A stretch of DNA of 64,000 nucleotides from Halarcobacter anaerophilus (lineage in GTDB: Bacteria > Campylobacterota > Campylobacteria > Campylobacterales > Arcobacteraceae), in the NCBI RefSeq assembly GCF_006459125.1, contig NZ_CP041070.1, positions 558,001 to 622,000 on the forward strand, read 5' to 3'. The translations under genes were made by a program, and so were the position numbers. Positions 19,234 to 43,788 of this stretch are shown here, one piece after another (positions within the stretch are counted from its first letter, which is position 1; each line of letters begins with the position of its first letter). The notes under the pieces are model-generated. The model searched no databases and was not told the DNA's origin. It saw only the letters and a program-made list of their open reading frames with translations.

Positions 19234-20400
19234 ATGTTGGATTTTAAAACTGCTTGCTTAAGTGATATTTTAAGTCATAAAACTATGTATTATGATGAGA
19301 TTGATTTTTCCATTGTTAAAAAATCCTGGGATATCTTATCTAAATATATAAAAATACCTTTTATTATACATATAGTAGGAACAAACGGGAAAGGAAGTAC
19401 AGGCAGATTTTTAGCCCACTATTTACATAAAAAATCTTTTAAGATTTTGCATTATAGTTCTCCTCATATTCTGAAATTTAATGAAAGAATTTGGATAAAC
19501 GGAAAAGACAGTTTAGATTTTGAATTAAACTATGCAAGTAGAAAAATTCAAAAATATCTGCCTCTTTATCTTTTAGAAAAACTTACATATTTTGAATATA
19601 CAACTCTTTTAGCTCTTGTTTTATCAGACGGTTTAGATTATTTGGTACTTGAAGCAGGGCTTGGAGGAGAATTTGATGCAACAAACGTAGTTCCTGCTGA
19701 TATCTCTTTAATTACGACTATAGGTTTAGATCATCAAAATTTTCTAGGAAACAGCATAAAAGAGATTGCAAAAACAAAAATGAGAGCAGCCGATAAAAAA
19801 ATGTTTATAGGTTATCAAGTTTTTGACGAAGTTTATGATGTGGCAAAAGAAGTAAAAAAAGAGTTAAAAGAAGAGTTTGACAGAGATATTCTTATTAAAA
19901 AAGTTGAAAATTTTGAAGAGTCTAATTTAAATAAAAAATTTCCTCTTTTTTTAAGAAGAAATCTTCATCTTGTAATAGAGACTCTAAAAGAGCTTGGTAT
20001 TGAGATAGATGAAAAACTTTTTGATGATGTAAAACTTTTCGGACGTTGCCAAAAAATAGCTTCTAATATTACAGTAGATGTGGGACATAACCCTTTAGCC
20101 GCACAAGTGTTGTTAAAAGAGTTTGAAAATAAAAAAGTGAGTCTTATATATAATTCATATAAAGATAAAGATTATAAAGAGGTCTTAAAAATCTTAAAAC
20201 CTATAATATCTGAAATAAGAATTATAGATTTGGATGATAAAAGGGTTGTTGATAAAAATAATTTATTAGATATTTGTAATAAATTGAATATAATAATTAA
20301 TACTAATAATGAAATAAGTGATGATAAAGAGTATTTGGTATTCGGTTCATTTTTAGTAGTTGAAAAATTTTTGAAAGATTTAAGTTTTGATGAAAAATAG
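19234..20400 (+). CDS. folC: Bifunctional folylpolyglutamate / dihydrofolate synthase
   Basis: ATP-dependent Mur-ligase-family enzyme that adds glutamate to dihydropteroate and to folates. The P-loop GTNGKGST is at 49-56. Further family blocks are YSSPHILKFNERIWING near 78, LEAGLGGEFDATNV near 140 and GLDHQNFLG near 167, with a C-terminal domain holding DVGHNP near 285. The 388-residue length is slightly short but complete. It starts three bases after lptE, and the peptidase gene downstream begins inside its last codons. The order folC-M23 peptidase-bactofilin matches H. pylori folC-csd2-csd1-ccmA. Confidence 0.93.
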   Translation: MLDFKTACLSDILSHKTMYYDEIDFSIVKKSWDILSKYIKIPFIIHIVGTNGKGSTGRFLAHYLHKKSFKILHYSSPHILKFNERIWINGKDSLDFELNYASRKIQKYLPLYLLEKLTYFEYTTLLALVLSDGLDYLVLEAGLGGEFDATNVVPADISLITTIGLDHQNFLGNSIKEIAKTKMRAADKKMFIGYQVFDEVYDVAKEVKKELKEEFDRDILIKKVENFEESNLNKKFPLFLRRNLHLVIETLKELGIEIDEKLFDDVKLFGRCQKIASNITVDVGHNPLAAQVLLKEFENKKVSLIYNSYKDKDYKEVLKILKPIISEIRIIDLDDKRVVDKNNLLDICNKLNIIINTNNEISDDKEYLVFGSFLVVEKFLKDLSFDEK

Positions 20401-21316
20401 ATTAATAATTACCATCTCTGATGTTCGTAGTACAAGATCTTATAATGTACATCAGATAATAAAAAAAGTCGCATTGATTATAGTTTTAGTCGTATTGTTA
20501 ATAATCGCTATCTCTTTTTGGTTTATTTCGGAATTAAATGACAATGTTGACACTTTGAAAGAGGAAAAAGAACAAGAGATTCAAAAAAAAGAGCAACAAA
20601 TCTCTGTTTTAGTAGAAAAAGAAAAAAAACTTCAAGCACAAAATCATTTTTATTCTATGCAGATAAAAGGGAAAGTAGAGGATATAAACGCTCTAAGTTC
20701 AAAACTCGATCATATTGAGGAAATGATAGGTCTTAGAAGCGATAATGAGAAAAAAGAAGAGATAACACAAGAAACATTAAAATCAATAAATGATAGAATA
20801 AAAATGTATATGTTAACAACAATGCCTAGCGGTTCACCTCTAAGAGAGACTACAATCACTTCTTCTTTTGGATATAGAATACATCCTGTAACAAAAAAGA
20901 AAAAATTTCACAGAGGAATAGATTTAAGAGCTAAAAGAAAAACAGAAGTTTTTGCAACAGGAGATGGTGTTGTAAGTTTTGCAAGAGCTAATGACACAGG
21001 CGGTTTTGGACGGGTAATTAAAATCAGACACAATTTTGGTTTTGAAACAGTGTATGCCCACTTAAATAAAATCTATGTAAAAACAGGTGATATTATAAGA
21101 AAAAATCAAAAAATCGGTTTAAGTGGAAACAGCGGTAGAAGTACGGCTCCGCATTTACACTATGAAGTCAGATACGGCTCTAGGATTTTAAATCCAAATC
21201 AATTTATAAAATGGCAGTTAGGAAATTTTTATACTATCTTTAAAAAAGAGAGGAGAGTTCGATGGGAATCTTTGGTAAGGCTAATAAACGAACAGTCAAA
21301 AATGGTGCGACGGTAA
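20390..21316 (+). CDS. Csd1-like M23 peptidoglycan endopeptidase
   Basis: Predicted periplasmic zinc endopeptidase that trims peptidoglycan crosslinks and sets cell curvature. One N-terminal membrane helix (about 28-47) is followed by a coiled coil (50-115) and an M23/LytM domain. That domain has zinc ligands in HRGIDL (H174, D178) and HLHYEV (H257) and a catalytic His in YAHL (H224). All catalytic residues are present, as in H. pylori Csd1 rather than the degenerate Csd2. Only one such gene is present, where H. pylori has two. ATG 20390 is preferred over the in-frame TTG three bases earlier. It overlaps folC by 11 bases and the bactofilin gene by 55. Confidence 0.85.
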   Translation: MKNRLIITISDVRSTRSYNVHQIIKKVALIIVLVVLLIIAISFWFISELNDNVDTLKEEKEQEIQKKEQQISVLVEKEKKLQAQNHFYSMQIKGKVEDINALSSKLDHIEEMIGLRSDNEKKEEITQETLKSINDRIKMYMLTTMPSGSPLRETTITSSFGYRIHPVTKKKKFHRGIDLRAKRKTEVFATGDGVVSFARANDTGGFGRVIKIRHNFGFETVYAHLNKIYVKTGDIIRKNQKIGLSGNSGRSTAPHLHYEVRYGSRILNPNQFIKWQLGNFYTIFKKERRVRWESLVRLINEQSKMVRR

Positions 21317-21708
21317 TTGCCCATGGGACTTGCATAATCGGCGGTATAACTACCGAAGGAAGTGTGCATATCGACGGAAAGTTTGAAGGGGTTATATTAG
21401 AAGCAGATTTAATCTCTATAGGAAAAACCGGTGAAGTAATCGGTGATATAAAAGCAAACAATTTAATTGTAAGCGGACTTTTAGACGGTAAAATAGACTG
21501 TAATCAGGTTCAGATTCTATCAGAAGGTAAAGTCATCGGAAATATGAAGTACAATGAACTCATAATAGAAGAAGACGGAAAATTTGAAGGGCAAGGCATT
21601 AGAAAAGGTTCTAATCTAACAAGTAAATATGATGAAGTTGAAAATAAAATCAATAACATAATATTAAGTCCTGCACAACAAATTAAACATGAATCCAACA
21701 ATTCATGA
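21262..21708 (+). CDS. ccmA: Bactofilin, CcmA-type cell-shape cytoskeletal protein
   Basis: Polymerising beta-helix protein that organises the curvature machinery. The 148 residues carry a short N-terminal tail, then the bactofilin core of repeating six-residue beta turns (GTCIIGGITTEGSVHIDGKFEG, LISIGKTGEVIGDIKANN, and similar) and an acidic tail. The ATG at 21262 lies 55 bases inside the M23 gene in another frame, preceded by GAGAGGAG. The same overlap of ccmA with csd1 is known in H. pylori, which supports both the start and the pairing. Its own 3' end overlaps the next gene by 20 bases. Probable partners are the M23 peptidase and other Csd proteins. Confidence 0.9.
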   Translation: MGIFGKANKRTVKNGATVIAHGTCIIGGITTEGSVHIDGKFEGVILEADLISIGKTGEVIGDIKANNLIVSGLLDGKIDCNQVQILSEGKVIGNMKYNELIIEEDGKFEGQGIRKGSNLTSKYDEVENKINNIILSPAQQIKHESNNS

Positions 21709-23812
21709 ACGGTTAGAAGCGCTCTATTCTCAAAAGAATGAGATTGAAAAAGAGATTGCAAAACTTGAGGAAGAGTTAAAAAAACAGACCTATTATAACC
21801 TAAAAAGAAAACTCTCAAAAGATGAAAAAATTCAACTTTTTGAAGAACTCTTTGTAAATAGAAAAGATATATATGCCAGAAAATGGATTAGTAAAGATAG
21901 AATAAAACAGAGATTTTTTCCCGTTACTCAAACTTTTAAAGGCAGTGATTTCATCCCTATTACAAATAAAGATTTGGAACTGCATTTAAGGGGACAAATC
22001 CATCTTGCTTCATATTTAATAGATGAACAAAACAGAGTAAAATTTATAGTTTTAGAAATTTTACCAAAAGATATCCAACGTTTATTAGATACTTTTTCTC
22101 TTTTAAAAGAGGACTTTTTATTTGAATACAGCTCTTACGGTTCAGTTTATGTTTGGCTCTTTTTTGAAACAAAAACAAGCAGTAAAGATGCCAGAAAATT
22201 TGCCCAATATATTTTAAGAAAATCAAATATAAACGCAAAAATCTATCCCAACAAAGATTTTTCCACAAAAGCCGGTTTAGAAGAACCTATTGAAATTCCT
22301 CTGCACTTAGGCTTTAGAAATGAAAACAAAACAGTCTTTTTTGACCCTGTTACGAAAAAAGTCTATACGGATCAGTGGAAAGTTTTATTAAATATAAAAA
22401 AAATATCTTCTCAAACATTGAATAAATATTTGGATTTTGAATCGGTTAATAATACAAGTTTTATTTTAGAGGATATACAAATACCTCCTTTTAAACTGAA
22501 TATCAAGCTATATGATTTTTTATATATTCCGACAAAAGATTTATCAAAAAGTTTTATTAACAAATTAAAAAGTTTTGCAACTTTTGATAACCCTCAGGTA
22601 AAAGTTCTCTTAAAGTTAAGAAAACCTTTATATAACACTCCAAGAGTAATAAAAAATTTTGAAGAAGATGAAGTCTATTTAAAACTTCCAAGAGGTTTGA
22701 TTTATAAAGTTGAAGAGTTCTTTAAAGAGTATAGTGTAAATTATATCATTGAAAATAAAACTTATCTGGAAAAAATTGAGACAAAAAAAATAAAATTTGA
22801 ATTAAGAGAAGAACAAGAAGAGGCAATTAAGGCTATTAATAAAAATGATTTTTGTATTTGTGTTGCTCCTCCGGGTTTTGGAAAGACCTTAATTGGAGCA
22901 AAAATGTTTGAACTAAGAGCTTGCAGCACTTTAATAATAGTAAATAAAAATATGCTTTTAAGTCAATGGATAGAGAGATTTGTGGATTATTTTGCTTATG
23001 ATAAAAAAGATATCGGATATCTAGGAAAAGGGAAAAACAAACTAAACGGAAAAATAGATGTAGCTACAATGCAAAGTCTTAAAAATTCTCCTGAAATTAT
23101 AAATGAATACTCTTTTGTAATAGTTGACGAATGCCACCATATCCCGGCAGTTACCTTTGAACAAATCGTTAAAAACTTTTTTGGAAGATATATCTTAGGT
23201 CTAAGTGCCACTCCAAATAGAAAAGACGGCTTACAGCCGATACTCTTTGAACAACTTGGAAAAATAGCTTATGAGTACAAAAGTAAAAGAAGTGTCAAAA
23301 ATCATCTAAAAATAATAAGAACGGATTTTACAAGTAATTGTGAAACTTATGCAGAACTTATTAATGAAATTTCAAGGGATGAAAAAAGAAACAATCTTAT
23401 TATCGAGCAAATTTTATTAAATAAAAAAAGGAAAATTTTACTTTTAACTGATAGAATAGAACATATAAATATTTTAGAACAAAAACTTTCAAGTATGGAT
23501 ATTGATTTTGTTTCGATACACGGAAGCATAAGTAAAAAAGAGCAAGAAGAGAAGATGGCACAAATCGAACAAAAAAGTTTGATACTGGCTACTACTTCAT
23601 ATTTCGGGGAAGGAATAGATTTTCCTCATTTAAATACAATTATTTTTGCGACACCTATATCATATTACGGAAGATTAGTTCAATATTTAGGAAGAATAGG
23701 AAGAGGAAATCAAGAGTGTCTGGCAATAGATTTCCTAGATCATAAAAATGCAATGCTTAATTCTGCTTACAAAAAAAGAGTAGAAGGGTATAAGCAGATG
23801 CACTATATCTAA
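21689..23812 (+). CDS. Superfamily 2 helicase with degenerate TOTE-type primase domain
   Basis: A 707-residue fusion. Residues 8-35 are a coiled coil. Residues about 48-240 match the layout of the archaeo-eukaryotic primase domain of TOTE conflict systems (FVNRKDIYARKW, ITNKDLELHLRG, WLFFE, IEIPLHLGFR, VFFDPVTKKVYTDQW). Residues 370-707 are an SF2/XPB-like helicase with PPGFGKT (394-400), DECH (480-483), SATPN (506-510) and YLGRIGRG near the end. The primase DxD position reads EIL (123-125) and the HxW histidine is Tyr154, so priming activity is unlikely while the ATPase looks intact. It overlaps ccmA by 20 bases. It may act in DNA repair or defence; its role is unknown. Confidence 0.75.
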   Translation: MNPTIHERLEALYSQKNEIEKEIAKLEEELKKQTYYNLKRKLSKDEKIQLFEELFVNRKDIYARKWISKDRIKQRFFPVTQTFKGSDFIPITNKDLELHLRGQIHLASYLIDEQNRVKFIVLEILPKDIQRLLDTFSLLKEDFLFEYSSYGSVYVWLFFETKTSSKDARKFAQYILRKSNINAKIYPNKDFSTKAGLEEPIEIPLHLGFRNENKTVFFDPVTKKVYTDQWKVLLNIKKISSQTLNKYLDFESVNNTSFILEDIQIPPFKLNIKLYDFLYIPTKDLSKSFINKLKSFATFDNPQVKVLLKLRKPLYNTPRVIKNFEEDEVYLKLPRGLIYKVEEFFKEYSVNYIIENKTYLEKIETKKIKFELREEQEEAIKAINKNDFCICVAPPGFGKTLIGAKMFELRACSTLIIVNKNMLLSQWIERFVDYFAYDKKDIGYLGKGKNKLNGKIDVATMQSLKNSPEIINEYSFVIVDECHHIPAVTFEQIVKNFFGRYILGLSATPNRKDGLQPILFEQLGKIAYEYKSKRSVKNHLKIIRTDFTSNCETYAELINEISRDEKRNNLIIEQILLNKKRKILLLTDRIEHINILEQKLSSMDIDFVSIHGSISKKEQEEKMAQIEQKSLILATTSYFGEGIDFPHLNTIIFATPISYYGRLVQYLGRIGRGNQECLAIDFLDHKNAMLNSAYKKRVEGYKQMHYI

Positions 23813-23825
23813 AGTTGAGGTTAAA

Positions 23826-25469
23826 ATGTTAGGGATTATTGTTTGGACTTTGTTTATTGCAATTATTGTAAATCTTGTATTAAAAAAAGTTCATCTTCCG
23901 ACTATTATAGGTTATATTATAACAGGAACGATAATCGCTTATGTTTTTGATCTGCATAATGCCGTAAATAATCATGACTTAAAAGAGATTGCCGAATTCG
24001 GTGTAGTCTTTTTGATGTTTACCATTGGATTGGAGTTCTCTATTAGTCATCTAAAACAGATGCGAAGAGAGGTCTTTTTCACAGGTAGTCTGCAAATTAT
24101 CGTAACTACTATATTTGTAACTCTTATTTGTATGTTTGTTTTGGGCTTTGATTTTAAAACTTCTTTAGTAATAGGTGCGGCCTTGTCTTTGTCTTCTACG
24201 GCAATCGTACTTAAAACCTATAATGAAACAAATGATATTAAAAAAAGGCATGGACAAAGAGTTTTAGGAATATTAATAATGCAGGATATTGCAGTTATTC
24301 CTATTTTATTAATGATCTCTTTTTTTACTTCAAACGGTGAGCATGATGTTATAAGACTTATTTTTAATACGGCAGTTGCCGCATTTATTCTTATAGCTCT
24401 ACTCTATCTTGTAGGAAGATATCTTTTAGAACCTTTTTTTGAACATGTAACCAAAGCAGAATCCGATGAACTTTTTGTAGCTTCTGTTTTGCTTGTTGCA
24501 ATAGGAGCTTCATATCTTGCCCATTATTTCGGATTTACTTACTCTTTAGGAGCTTTTGTAGCAGGTATGATGATTAGTGAGACAAAGTTTAAACATCAAG
24601 TAGAAGCAGACCTGACACCTTTTAGAAATCTTCTTTTGGGAGTCTTCTTTATTACTGTAGGAATGCAGATAAACTTCTCCGTAATTGCACAAAATATTCT
24701 TATAATCTTAATACTTCTTCCCACTTTGCTGCTTATTAAATATTTGATAATCTATTTAATAGTAAGAATCGACGATACAAAAAGAGTTGCTTTTAAAACA
24801 GCTTTATCTTTGATTCAAATAGGGGAATTCTCTTTGGCTGTACTTGAACTTGCAAGAAGTTCCAATCTGATAAATCCTACATATTCACAGATTTTGATAG
24901 TAACCATAGTAATATCTATGATTTTAACACCTATTATTTTAAAAAATCTCTCTAAGTTTGCGGGAAAATTACTTCCTGAAGATCCTTTGAGTATAGCAAA
25001 TACTTACAATATAGATAAAGATACAAAAGGTCATGTTGTAGTTATAGGTTATGGACATTTAGGTCAAGAAATTGCAGCTAATTTAAGACTTGACGGACAT
25101 GAATATGTAATAGTCGAACACAATCTTAAATATTTTGAAATGGGTTATTTAGATGATGAACCTATAATTTTCGGAAATGCAGCACATAAACATATCTTGG
25201 AATCCGTAAATATAAGACAAGCTTGTGCCGTAATAGTTGCAATTGATAATCCCGAAAAAGTTCATTTAGTATGTGAAGTTATAAATGATTTGACCCATAA
25301 TACTAAAACTATAGTAAAAGTGACAAGATTTAGCGAAAAAGAGGAACTTCAAAATCTACATTTGGAACATATCATAGTAGAAGATGATATTGTTGCAAGA
25401 GCTTTAGTAGAAGAGACAAAAGAGTGTAAAGTCGATTTCGTAGAAGAAGAAAATAAAAAAAAGCAGTAA
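23826..25469 (+). CDS. Kef/CPA2-type cation:proton antiporter with RCK domain
   Basis: Inner-membrane monovalent cation/proton antiporter (547 residues). The first 390 residues hold about 12 helices with the CPA2 features FGVVFLMFTIGLEFS, LSLSSTAIVLKT and IGEFSLAVLELA. An intact TrkA-N/RCK nucleotide-binding domain follows, with VVIGYGHLGQE near 406 and a downstream acidic residue in the second strand. The tail is rich in Lys and Glu. It resembles KefB/KefC and YbaL, but the glutathione-gating loop cannot be judged by eye. It begins 14 bases after the helicase gene and may still belong to that transcript. Confidence 0.88.
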   Translation: MLGIIVWTLFIAIIVNLVLKKVHLPTIIGYIITGTIIAYVFDLHNAVNNHDLKEIAEFGVVFLMFTIGLEFSISHLKQMRREVFFTGSLQIIVTTIFVTLICMFVLGFDFKTSLVIGAALSLSSTAIVLKTYNETNDIKKRHGQRVLGILIMQDIAVIPILLMISFFTSNGEHDVIRLIFNTAVAAFILIALLYLVGRYLLEPFFEHVTKAESDELFVASVLLVAIGASYLAHYFGFTYSLGAFVAGMMISETKFKHQVEADLTPFRNLLLGVFFITVGMQINFSVIAQNILIILILLPTLLLIKYLIIYLIVRIDDTKRVAFKTALSLIQIGEFSLAVLELARSSNLINPTYSQILIVTIVISMILTPIILKNLSKFAGKLLPEDPLSIANTYNIDKDTKGHVVVIGYGHLGQEIAANLRLDGHEYVIVEHNLKYFEMGYLDDEPIIFGNAAHKHILESVNIRQACAVIVAIDNPEKVHLVCEVINDLTHNTKTIVKVTRFSEKEELQNLHLEHIIVEDDIVARALVEETKECKVDFVEEENKKKQ

Positions 25470-40486: not shown

Positions 40487-40801
40487 ATGAATGATCAAAT
40501 TGAAGTATTGGTATTATTAGAAATCACGGGTTTAAAAGATAAAGAGAGATTTGAAAAACATGTAAAAAAAGAGGGGTTTATTCTTGTAGAGGGTGAAAAC
40601 TTTGTTTATACTGCAAAATCTACTACTACGCTTTTTTCTACAAAAGCTTTTATTCTGGAGATATTTAAAGTTGCTTTGCAAAAACAAGATTTCCAAGGAG
40701 ATGCAAATTTGGTGTTTTTATTAAATGAAACACCTTATCCCGCTTATTATTACGATAAAAAGACAAAATATTTTGAATTGGTAAAAGAAGAAGAAAAATA
40801 G
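40487..40801 (+). CDS. Small conserved protein of unknown function upstream of mfd
   Basis: A 104-residue soluble protein without signal peptide or membrane helix. It looks alpha/beta, with an opening IEVLVLLEITGLKDKERFEKH, a VYTAKSTTTLFSTKAF middle and a tail rich in Tyr, Lys and Glu. I recognise no family. It begins 11 bases after the DUF445 gene, its TAG overlaps the mfd GTG by one base, and its codon use matches the neighbours, so it is a real translated gene. The one-base overlap suggests a fixed ratio to Mfd, but a shared function is only inference. Confidence 0.65.
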   Translation: MNDQIEVLVLLEITGLKDKERFEKHVKKEGFILVEGENFVYTAKSTTTLFSTKAFILEIFKVALQKQDFQGDANLVFLLNETPYPAYYYDKKTKYFELVKEEEK

Positions 40802-43788
40802 TGAATAGTATTTATGAATTTCTAAAAAATCTAAATGATGAAAAAAATTTAAAAAAGTGTCAACTTCTAGTCGTAAATGATGATAGACAAGCTCAAATAG
40901 CTTCTGATATAGTCTCTTTTTTAGGCTTTAAAGCTTTTACTCTGGCAGATTTTAGAGCAAATTTCGGAGATGATTTACTCTCTTTTTCAACTGAACTTCA
41001 AGATATAACAAAAGCTTTAAATGATTTTTACTCTTATAAAAAAGAGAATAAAATTTTAATCTCGCCAATTAGAACTATCTCCTTTGCTATGCCTAAACAG
41101 AGCTGTTTTGACTCTTTTGAAATCTCCTTTGCCGACAGTTTAAATATAGAAGAGTTAAAAAACAAACTTTATAACTGGGGATACTATTTTGTTGATATTG
41201 TAACTTCTGAATCGGAAGTTTCCATAAGAGGAGATATTATTGATATCTGTCCTTTAGGAAGCGAAGTCGGATACAGAATATCTCTTTTTGACGATGAAGT
41301 TGAGAGTATAAGAAAGTTTGATATAGAAGATCAAAAATCTTTTAAAGAGGAAATAGAATCTTTTAAAATAACTCCCGCATTTTTAGCTTTAAGTCAAGAG
41401 AAGTTAGAAGAGATAAACGAAGAGATTGAAAAAGTAGAATCGGATGCTTTTATTAAAGATATCCACTCTCTTGGATTTTGGTATTTAGATGAGTTAGGAG
41501 AATATCTTCCTTCTAAATTAAACTCATATATCACTCAAGAGGCTTTAGAAGAGTTGGATGAAGTTTATGTTTTTGAAGATAAAAGAATAAACAAAGATAA
41601 GTTTCTAACTCTTCCTCAAATTTATAGAGCCAAAAACTATCAAGAAGTTGCTCCTGCAAACCTAAAAGAGTTTTTAACTTTCCATGAAGATAAAAAAGTA
41701 ACAATAATCTCCTCAAGTGAAGCAAAAGTAAAAGCTTTTGATTTAGATCTTTCAAACAAAGATATAAATTATGTTTTTGATTCTTTTATTATAAATTTAG
41801 TCGGGAACAATGAAGTTATAATCTCTTTAAACAAAGAGATTAAAAAAAGAAGAAAAAAGAGGATAAAACTTGTTCTTGATGAGCTTCAAAACGGAGATTT
41901 TGTAGTTCATGAAAAACACGGAATAGGGCAATATCAAGGAATAGAACCTGTAGTTGTGATGGGAGCAAAAAGAGATTTTGTAGTTATAACTTATGCAGGG
42001 GATGATAAACTTCTTCTTCCTGTTGAAAACATAGATTTAATTGATAGATATGTAGCTGACGGAAGTTCTTATGCTGTAGTTGATAAACTAGGGAAAGGAA
42101 GTTTTGCCAAACTAAAAGAGAAAGTAAAAGATAAACTTTTTGCAATAGCAAACGATATTATAAAAATAGCAGCGGCAAGAGAGTTAGTTAACGGTATAAA
42201 AATAAATACACAAAAAAAGATTTTGGAAGATTTTGCTTTATCTTCGGGCTTTACTTATACAAAAGATCAAAAAAGAAGTATAAAAGAGATTTTTGAGGAT
42301 TTAAGTTCGGGAAGAGTTATGGACAGGCTTCTTAGCGGAGATGTAGGTTTCGGTAAAACGGAAGTTGCTATGAATGCAATTTTAGCAGTCGTATTAGACG
42401 GTTTTCAGGCACTTTTTGTTTGTCCTACGACACTTTTGGCTTCGCAACACTATTATAGTATGAAAAAAAGATTTGATGCCTTTGGCATTAAAATGGCAAA
42501 ACTAGACAGTAAAACTTCCACAAAAGAGAAAAATCGAATAAAAAAAGATCTGCAAGAGGGAACCTTACAATTAGTTGTAGGAACTCACTCTATAATAGGA
42601 GTAAAAACAAAAAATCTTGCTTTGGTCATAATAGATGAAGAACATAAATTCGGTGTAAAACAAAAAGAGAAACTAAAAGAGCTTAGAGAAGATGTACATA
42701 TTTTTTCAATGAGTGCCACACCTATTCCTAGAACTTTAAACTTAGCACTTAGCAAACTAAAAGGGATGAGTTCACTTTTAACTCCTCCAAGTGAAAGATT
42801 AGGTGTTAGAACTTATGTAAAAGAGTATAGTGACAAACTTATTAAAGAGATTGTTTTAAGAGAAAAAAGAAGAGGCGGACAGCTTTTTTACGTACACAAT
42901 AATATAGCTTCAATAGAGGCAAAAAAAGCGGATATTTTAGAGTTGTTACCGAATATAAAAGTTGAAATAATACACTCAAAAATAAAACCTGCAGATGCAG
43001 AAAAAATCATAGACAAATTTGAAAATAAAGAGTTTGATATTCTTTTGGCTACATCTATTGTAGAATCAGGGCTTCATCTTCCAAATGCAAACTCTATTAT
43101 AATAGACGGTGCAGATAGATTCGGAATAGCAGATTTACATCAATTAAGAGGAAGAGTCGGAAGAAGCGACAAAGAGGGATTCTGTTATTACGTAGTTGAA
43201 GATAAAAAGAAAATCACCAATGATGCTATTAAAAGATTAGTTGCCCTTGAATCAAACTCATATTTAGGAAGCGGAACAGCCTTGGCTCATCAAGACTTGG
43301 AAATCAGAGGCGGTGGAAATATTATAGGTGAAGCCCAAAGCGGTCATATAAAACAAATAGGTTACGGGCTTTATCTTAAAATGCTTGAGGATGCTTTGTC
43401 GACACTTAGCGGTGAAACAAAAGAAAAAAGTAAAACCGTTGATATAAAACTTGCTATTTCAGCATATATAAGCAGCGATTATATCCATGAAGACAGAGTA
43501 AGATTGGAACTTTACAGAAGATTATCAAAATGTCAAAGTAAAGATGAGGTTTATGTAATTGAAGAGGAGATGGAAGATAGATTCTCTAAACCTGATACTC
43601 CTACCAAACAATTTTTAGATTTGATTATTATAAAAATTCTTGCAATAGCAAAAGCAATAAAAACAGTAAGTTCATATGAAATGAATATAACCTTTGTAAA
43701 AGCAGACGATACAAAAGAGACAATAAAAAGTCCAAGTAAAGATGACGATGATATTATTGCTACAACATTAACATATTTGAGAAAATAA
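40801..43788 (+). CDS. mfd: Transcription-repair coupling factor
   Basis: DNA translocase that displaces RNA polymerase stalled at lesions and recruits UvrA. The 995-residue protein shows a degenerate UvrB-like N-terminal module (about 1-300), the RNA polymerase-interacting domain (KHGIGQYQGIEPV, near 375), and the RecG-like motor with GDVGFGKTE near 514, DEEH near 611, SATPIPRTL, and GRVGRSDKEGFCYY. A C-terminal TRCF domain follows. It is somewhat shorter than the E. coli enzyme (1148), as in other Campylobacterota. Start is GTG inside the stop of the upstream gene. In H. pylori and Campylobacter mfd sits beside ccmA; here it is 17 kb away, so the block has been rearranged. Confidence 0.96.
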   Translation: MNSIYEFLKNLNDEKNLKKCQLLVVNDDRQAQIASDIVSFLGFKAFTLADFRANFGDDLLSFSTELQDITKALNDFYSYKKENKILISPIRTISFAMPKQSCFDSFEISFADSLNIEELKNKLYNWGYYFVDIVTSESEVSIRGDIIDICPLGSEVGYRISLFDDEVESIRKFDIEDQKSFKEEIESFKITPAFLALSQEKLEEINEEIEKVESDAFIKDIHSLGFWYLDELGEYLPSKLNSYITQEALEELDEVYVFEDKRINKDKFLTLPQIYRAKNYQEVAPANLKEFLTFHEDKKVTIISSSEAKVKAFDLDLSNKDINYVFDSFIINLVGNNEVIISLNKEIKKRRKKRIKLVLDELQNGDFVVHEKHGIGQYQGIEPVVVMGAKRDFVVITYAGDDKLLLPVENIDLIDRYVADGSSYAVVDKLGKGSFAKLKEKVKDKLFAIANDIIKIAAARELVNGIKINTQKKILEDFALSSGFTYTKDQKRSIKEIFEDLSSGRVMDRLLSGDVGFGKTEVAMNAILAVVLDGFQALFVCPTTLLASQHYYSMKKRFDAFGIKMAKLDSKTSTKEKNRIKKDLQEGTLQLVVGTHSIIGVKTKNLALVIIDEEHKFGVKQKEKLKELREDVHIFSMSATPIPRTLNLALSKLKGMSSLLTPPSERLGVRTYVKEYSDKLIKEIVLREKRRGGQLFYVHNNIASIEAKKADILELLPNIKVEIIHSKIKPADAEKIIDKFENKEFDILLATSIVESGLHLPNANSIIIDGADRFGIADLHQLRGRVGRSDKEGFCYYVVEDKKKITNDAIKRLVALESNSYLGSGTALAHQDLEIRGGGNIIGEAQSGHIKQIGYGLYLKMLEDALSTLSGETKEKSKTVDIKLAISAYISSDYIHEDRVRLELYRRLSKCQSKDEVYVIEEEMEDRFSKPDTPTKQFLDLIIIKILAIAKAIKTVSSYEMNITFVKADDTKETIKSPSKDDDDIIATTLTYLRK

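Follow-up and report, generated by a model that had tools for sequence, protein, structure and literature searches.

A chromosomal helicase with a degenerate primase domain in the Arcobacteraceae, a candidate for the role of RecG

The window analysed here is a stretch of 64,000 nucleotides from the chromosome of Halarcobacter anaerophilus (NZ_CP041070.1, positions 558,001 to 622,000). At positions 21689..23812 of its plus strand, on which all features described below lie, the reading-frame call and Pfam place a gene with an ATG start that encodes a protein of 707 amino acids. The protein begins with an N-terminal helix (residues 1-39; 21689..21805), read from the secondary structure of the predicted model and found also at the start of natural forms that lack the next domain. 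This is followed by a Prim-Pol domain of the AEP-TOTE family at residues 44-246 (21818..22426), defined by Pfam and by a structure predicted from an alignment of catalytically dead sequences only, a middle domain at residues 268-365 (22490..22783) that aligns with XPB and UvsW over their N-terminal parts (ranges from 267-268), and an SF2 helicase motor at residues 366-707 (22784..23809) whose motifs I-VI are intact by Pfam, structure match and motif alignment. The Pfam matches are AEP-TOTE at residues 46-246 (E 1.8e-40, 139.4 bits, cut-off 27), ResIII at 369-511 and Helicase_C at 571-673. Among NCBIfam models, the PrimPol_Msp equivalog for CRISPR-associated Prim-Pol scored 61.5 bits, below its cut-off of 200, and the best RecG model scored 21.2 bits against a cut-off of 718, covering the motor alone; PF08966 (DUF1882) gave no Pfam match at E up to 1. 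The next closest helicase of the same genome is a 932-aa PLD-helicase-DUF3427 protein (L066:4744-7542) of about 27-28% identity.

Upstream lie a gene of the Mur ligase family by Pfam, which we take from the gene order to be folC (19234..20400), an M23 peptidase gene (20387..21316, Pfam) and the bactofilin gene ccmA (21262..21708, reading frames and Pfam), which overlaps the primase-helicase gene by 20 bases. A gene for a KefB-like transporter follows downstream (23826..25469, Pfam), and mfd is found intact 17 kb downstream of the primase-helicase gene (40801..43788), which rules out a replacement of Mfd. Homologues were found by search in 92 of 104 Arcobacteraceae genomes, and 91 of these 92 (G290 was left out) make up our table of chromosomal copies with 94 rows. 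In other Campylobacterales families mfd comes directly after ccmA in 21 of 28 loci (counted by eye), the place where the primase-helicase gene sits in Arcobacteraceae. The upstream neighbour was ccmA in 47 of the 94 rows, folC in 34, a piece of the same broken gene in two and none that we recognised in 11, and the KefB-like gene was next downstream in 57. In genus g2, folC was upstream in 29 of 30 rows, and in genus g3 the gene is located elsewhere. As folC replaces ccmA upstream in many rows, the gene belongs with the leuS-lptE-folC cluster and not with cell shape. An earlier note on this DNA, made from its letters alone, had proposed a conserved operon linked to ccmA; the adjacency holds in half of the rows (47/94), but the link is positional only. 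The same note had called the enzyme TOTE type. The TOTE conflict system is described, in passages of PMC12458937, as consisting of TPR, OB, TBP and Effector, and no TPR, OB or TBP gene scored above the Pfam cut-off among the window protein and its folC, M23, ccmA and kefB neighbours, so that the locus falls outside the definition and the label fails as the name of a system.

The primase site is degenerate, as had been read from the sequence before. In the family alignment, intact relatives carry D-L-D at motif I where the window protein has E-I-L (residues 123-125; 22055..22063), and they carry the motif II His where it has Tyr154 (22148..22150), with W156 of the HxW pattern present. Apart from these, we found a third loss, a deletion of nine residues between residues 183 and 184 (22235..22240, by alignment) that takes away the acid of motif III, for which the S-Y-D-R-x-F-P-N-Q stretch of intact relatives was taken. 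Motif I was placed by the family alignment; a phmmer alignment to 7nqd places it differently. The helicase motor was rightly described as intact, its SF2 motifs being kept in both the alignment and the structure match, and these motifs are intact in the commonest patterns across the whole alignment set. The motifs of the AEP superfamily are given as hhhDhD/E, sxH and hD/E in passages of PMC10345425, where mutation of the triad is stated to ablate catalysis. Double motif I mutants of two CAPPs were inactive (PMC8211822, in part), as was a DID-to-LIL mutant of PolpTN2 (PMC5862659, in part). According to the same part of PMC5862659, some active AEPs have a motif II His that is specific to their family, and its loss alone is therefore not decisive.

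Across the 91 genomes, the domain is present with more than 150 residues in 77, absent in 13 and interrupted by a broken frame in one (G225). Among these 77 chromosomal copies, the first position of motif I is never D and is E in 64, the second is D in two, and no copy has both acids together. Three copies (G120, G186, G243) retain the motif II His and none the motif III acid; Trp156 is kept in all 77, as are H99, L100 and G102. The 14 intact rows, ten from other families and four second copies within Arcobacteraceae, have each motif I acid in 13/13 (one row is gapped), and the His and motif III in 14/14. The locus of the genome outside the table (G290, L063) shows the same motif losses as the chromosomal copies. 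As to whether the loss is fixed in Campylobacterota, which the earlier note had raised, it is fixed in Arcobacteraceae but not phylum-wide, the motifs being retained in plasmid-borne relatives and in those of other families.

The fold of the domain appears to be retained in spite of these losses. The full-length model (pLDDT 86.0, pTM 0.52) matched MsCAPP Prim-Pol over residues 45-255 (Z 23.2, rmsd 2.3, 194 aligned), archaeal XPB over residues 267-693 (Z 25.7, rmsd 8.6, 371 aligned; the high rmsd is due to the two lobes) and the T4 UvsW fragment 1rif over residues 267-529 (Z 22.7, rmsd 3.4, 246 aligned). As the full-length alignment included six intact relatives, the domain was refolded from 58 dead sequences only, which gave a model of pLDDT 91.6 and pTM 0.88 that matched MsCAPP Prim-Pol with Z 23.4, rmsd 2.3 and 194 aligned residues. 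Structure prediction had been suggested as the check on the TOTE-type Prim-Pol fold, and it recovered that fold, in line with the Pfam match, and not the absence of a primase fold. The motor motifs and the XPB/UvsW-like middle domain, both present, place the protein in the XPB/UvsW/D10 type of SF2 helicases. With its catalytic site lost and its Prim-Pol fold kept, the N-terminal domain is very probably a pseudo-enzyme.

Selection on the dead domain was assessed by pairwise dN/dS with a Nei-Gojobori script, the pairs sharing genomes and hence not being independent. Over 19 pairs of dead proteins, the dead domain had a median of 0.088, against 0.060 in the middle domain and 0.043 in the motor; the corresponding medians of intact proteins were 0.073 for Prim-Pol (7 pairs), 0.095 for the middle domain and 0.057 for the motor (6 pairs each). 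As the dead-domain value is near that of the intact proteins, the dead domain is constrained about like a live one. Its rate of change exceeds that of the attached motor, with a median dN ratio of 1.7 (range 0.4 to 4.9; 1.0 in intact pairs), and its role may therefore be minor. Its median net charge is +4 and that of live forms +2, which is weakly compatible with DNA binding by the dead domain. Purifying selection and the kept fold favour the idea, already voiced in the earlier note, that a degenerate primase was retained for a non-catalytic role.

In a tree built by a quick method from the helicase part of 103 rows, the intact rows were separated (support 91) from the dead and domain-less ones, which grouped by genus. 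The domain-less rows (g3, g83, g96) formed a single clade (support 99) among the dead rows; G052 and G186 are long branches whose placement is unsure. The domain-less proteins have about 475 residues, and their N-terminal helix leads directly into the middle domain. The Prim-Pol domain is shortened and more eroded in genus g5, and in G225 (MAG BM102; L018 / L005) the break in the gene falls within the dead domain and leaves the remaining helicase frame open. In G296 a decayed remnant of 368 bp lies between ccmA and kefB (L241:4986-5353), from which residues 40-71 were recovered by tblastn against that stretch alone (E 1e-7). Among plasmid records 97 had a match, the best six being from Arcobacter or Aliarcobacter at 43.1-43.9% identity, and of five plasmid proteins inspected all had DxD and HxW and four had the motif III pattern. 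Eight genomes of other families also hold a homologue, with the full motif set wherever the domain is readable, and four genomes carry both the dead chromosomal and the intact form (G278, G451, G497, G500). Of ten intact loci, six (L059, L060, L148, L149, L150, L167) lie beside a pair of genes for 212-aa and 295-aa proteins, three beside a gene for an ATPase of about 400 aa and one beside neither; one such pair matched AbiEii (E 2.8e-32) with AbiEi_4 below cut-off, and one ATPase gene matched AAA_14 (Pfam). The intact gene with its AbiE-like pair or ATPase gene is thus a possible mobile defence cassette. L149 coincides with a plasmid record, so the observations on intact loci and on plasmids are not independent. 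Judged by its occurrence in 92 of 104 genomes and on one side of the tree, the chromosomal form was probably inherited vertically in Arcobacteraceae. At the level of sequence, the locus would record a path from a mobile Prim-Pol/helicase through chromosomal capture and a dead site to a selected domain, which was then deleted in one branch, the whole gene disappearing from others.

A full-length RecG was found in none of the 104 Arcobacteraceae genomes with TIGR00643 and a profile of the RecG N-terminus. TIGR00643 matched 96 of them with E values of 1e-50 or lower, the matches spanning about profile positions 211-608 and lying nearly always in frames of about 1000 aa, which are Mfd; the matches in frames of other lengths are broken or edge frames (G515, G520, G556). 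As the cut-off of TIGR00643 is missed by RecG of Campylobacterales (0 of 149 pass), a custom profile was built from the N-terminal halves of seven RecGs of the order. Its matches in Arcobacteraceae start at profile position 188 or later, save two weak ones that were rejected. The suspected RecG remnants in G501 and G483 were located among clustered, unrelated genes, and a tblastn search with five RecGs reached E 0.075 at best in one and gave nothing in the other; a third weak match is a 605-aa frame in G284 (E 8.9e-4). In a survey of 298 genomes of the order, counted by eye at a threshold of E 1e-20, the custom profile matched 242 of 268 other Campylobacterales, several of the 26 non-matching ones being incomplete, and 0 of 30 Arcobacteraceae. 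All eight other-family genomes that bear an intact Prim-Pol/helicase keep RecG, and the presence of the helicase alone therefore does not displace it. Neither gene is present in eight near-complete Arcobacteraceae (G142, G487, G513, G514, G515, G516, G534, G296), so that both RecG and the pseudo-primase/helicase are dispensable, which resembles the behaviour of many repair factors. In the Mfd tree G296 and G516 are nested inside gene-bearing lineages (G514 and G515 are outside the tree), and the gene was hence lost there; g8 and g95 stand near the base, unresolved against the gene-bearing g5. The pattern of RecG is one clade deep and so amounts to a single event, which may be coincidental.

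The dead-only model also matched HP0184 of H. pylori (PDB 2atz; Z 12.3, rmsd 3.7, 149 aligned), which a table in PMC3397514 lists as a Prim-pol domain of unknown function and whose gene is called non-essential in a passage of PMC6294363. In each of 12 loci (L275-L286), the HP0184-like gene (DUF1882, PF08966) comes directly after a gene read as glyA, and all four of the proteins tested matched AEP-TOTE (E 6.6e-7 to 5e-4), two of them above the cut-off. Their site is degenerate too, with D-Y-N at motif I, Trp at motif III and the His kept in 11 of the 12, the twelfth deviating at all three motifs. Within the order, the HP0184 profile had matches in 214 of 268 genomes from other families and in 0 of 30 from Arcobacteraceae. 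That Arcobacteraceae go without both RecG and HP0184 and carry a fused form is a lead and not a result. The two genes do not co-occur tightly, since G018, G036, G060 and G073, for example, match the RecG profile and not the HP0184 profile. It is doubtful that the family replaced RecG, and perhaps HP0184 as well, with one captured plasmid protein made of a pseudo-primase and a UvsW-like motor; if it did, the fused form would hint that HP0184 and RecG cooperate at forks in other Campylobacterales. The fused pseudo-primase is in this way a lead on HP0184, for which an H. pylori structure is available.

We propose that the window protein is a domesticated fork-remodelling helicase with a pseudo-primase DNA-binding domain that may cover the role of RecG, and we put the probability of this whole reading at about 0.5. 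It is favoured because UvsW has been published as an analogue of RecG in function, complementing some of the recG-null defects (PMC3778716, in part); T5 D10 migrates branches, and among characterised proteins XPB and UvsW are its closest relatives (PMC5180179, in part). Early in the history of Arcobacteraceae, the chromosome would have captured a Prim-Pol/helicase of the plasmid type at the junction of ccmA and mfd, and the gene would have been passed on vertically from then on. The Prim-Pol domain of this gene has lost the metal-binding and nucleotide-site residues, as the sequence shows, and has apparently persisted as a folded, selected and non-catalytic module, judged by predicted fold and computed selection. 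The dead module may hold single-stranded or forked DNA and steer the XPB/UvsW-type motor to branched DNA, where the motor may rewind or regress stalled forks and migrate branches, the work that RecG does in related families. As one sub-clade dropped the whole domain and kept the motor, the motor is the more important half. Two questions become testable at this locus, namely whether a UvsW-like helicase can replace RecG in a bacterium and what use a primase fold has without priming. No description of the dead chromosomal primase-helicase form was found in open-licence literature as judged by titles and the beginnings of abstracts, and passages of PMC3325230, the one paper in which Arcobacter, RecG and helicase occur together, mention Arcobacter only for dif sites.

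The earlier note had left open whether the enzyme is repurposed for defence or for repair, and an action on foreign DNA, such as the plasmids that carry the intact relatives, with the dead domain competing for substrate, deserves consideration. The PADLOC PrimPol model does match the window protein (E 2.2e-30), intact relatives stand on plasmids and beside AbiE-like, ATPase or restriction genes, and both forms are found together in four genomes. This coexistence, however, also speaks against the defence reading, and the chromosomal form belongs to a housekeeping cluster, occurs in 92 of 104 family genomes and tracks the genera in the tree, whereas typical defence genes are patchy in distribution. 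We regard a defence helicase as unlikely, and 'repair' fits the chromosomal form better than 'defence'.

The dead domain could alternatively be a fading remnant without function, the helicase alone being of importance. Its deletion in 13 genomes of genera g3, g83 and g96 (the gene of G468 begins at a contig edge), its shortening in g5, the break in G225 and its faster change relative to the motor are all what a remnant would show, but a dN/dS of about 0.09, little different from the 0.073 of live domains (7 pairs), and a fold kept across the whole family along with W156, H99, L100 and G102 (77/77) make this quite improbable. Catalysis through a different arrangement of acids, for which the E123 kept in 64 of 77 rows could be cited, is most improbable: the motif I acid pair occurs in no row, the motif III acid is missing from all 77, and changing two motif I acids kills the activity of CAPPs (PMC8211822, in part) and PolpTN2 (PMC5862659, in part). 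On the alignments alone, it is likewise unlikely that the catalytic residues are supplied from elsewhere in the protein. Partnership with CcmA in cell shape, suggested by a gene that directly follows and often overlaps ccmA (47/94 rows), has next to no likelihood with folC upstream in 34 rows and the gene elsewhere in g3, and such a role was rejected on synteny.

The CAPP-helicase architecture, a Prim-Pol fused to a helicase and typically found on mobile elements, has been published (PMC8211822, section 6). The window protein resembles these AEP-TOTE / CAPP-helicase proteins in its domain order and in its identity of about 43-44% to the Arcobacter plasmid copies, and differs from them in the loss of three catalytic motifs, its chromosomal location in a housekeeping cluster and its vertical inheritance. 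It shares the middle domain and the SF2 motor with T4 UvsW, T5 D10 and archaeal XPB, and its phage matches are annotated as d10-type helicases. Archaeal XPB, unlike it, has no Prim-Pol part, the match beginning at model residue 267, and UvsW and D10 are not known to carry a Prim-Pol domain. The likeness to RecG is confined to the proposed job of fork rewinding and branch migration, as a full match to the RecG wedge and motor model is lacking (21.2 bits against 718). HP0184 / DUF1882 (PDB 2atz) resembles it as a degenerate Prim-Pol fold in Campylobacterales, but is a standalone protein of about 180 aa encoded beside glyA and not found in Arcobacteraceae. By descent the window protein belongs with the AEP-TOTE / CAPP-helicase proteins, although the catalytic and TOTE partner-gene tests fail, and it may work like a motor of the UvsW/XPB type equipped with an accessory domain of the Prim-Pol fold.
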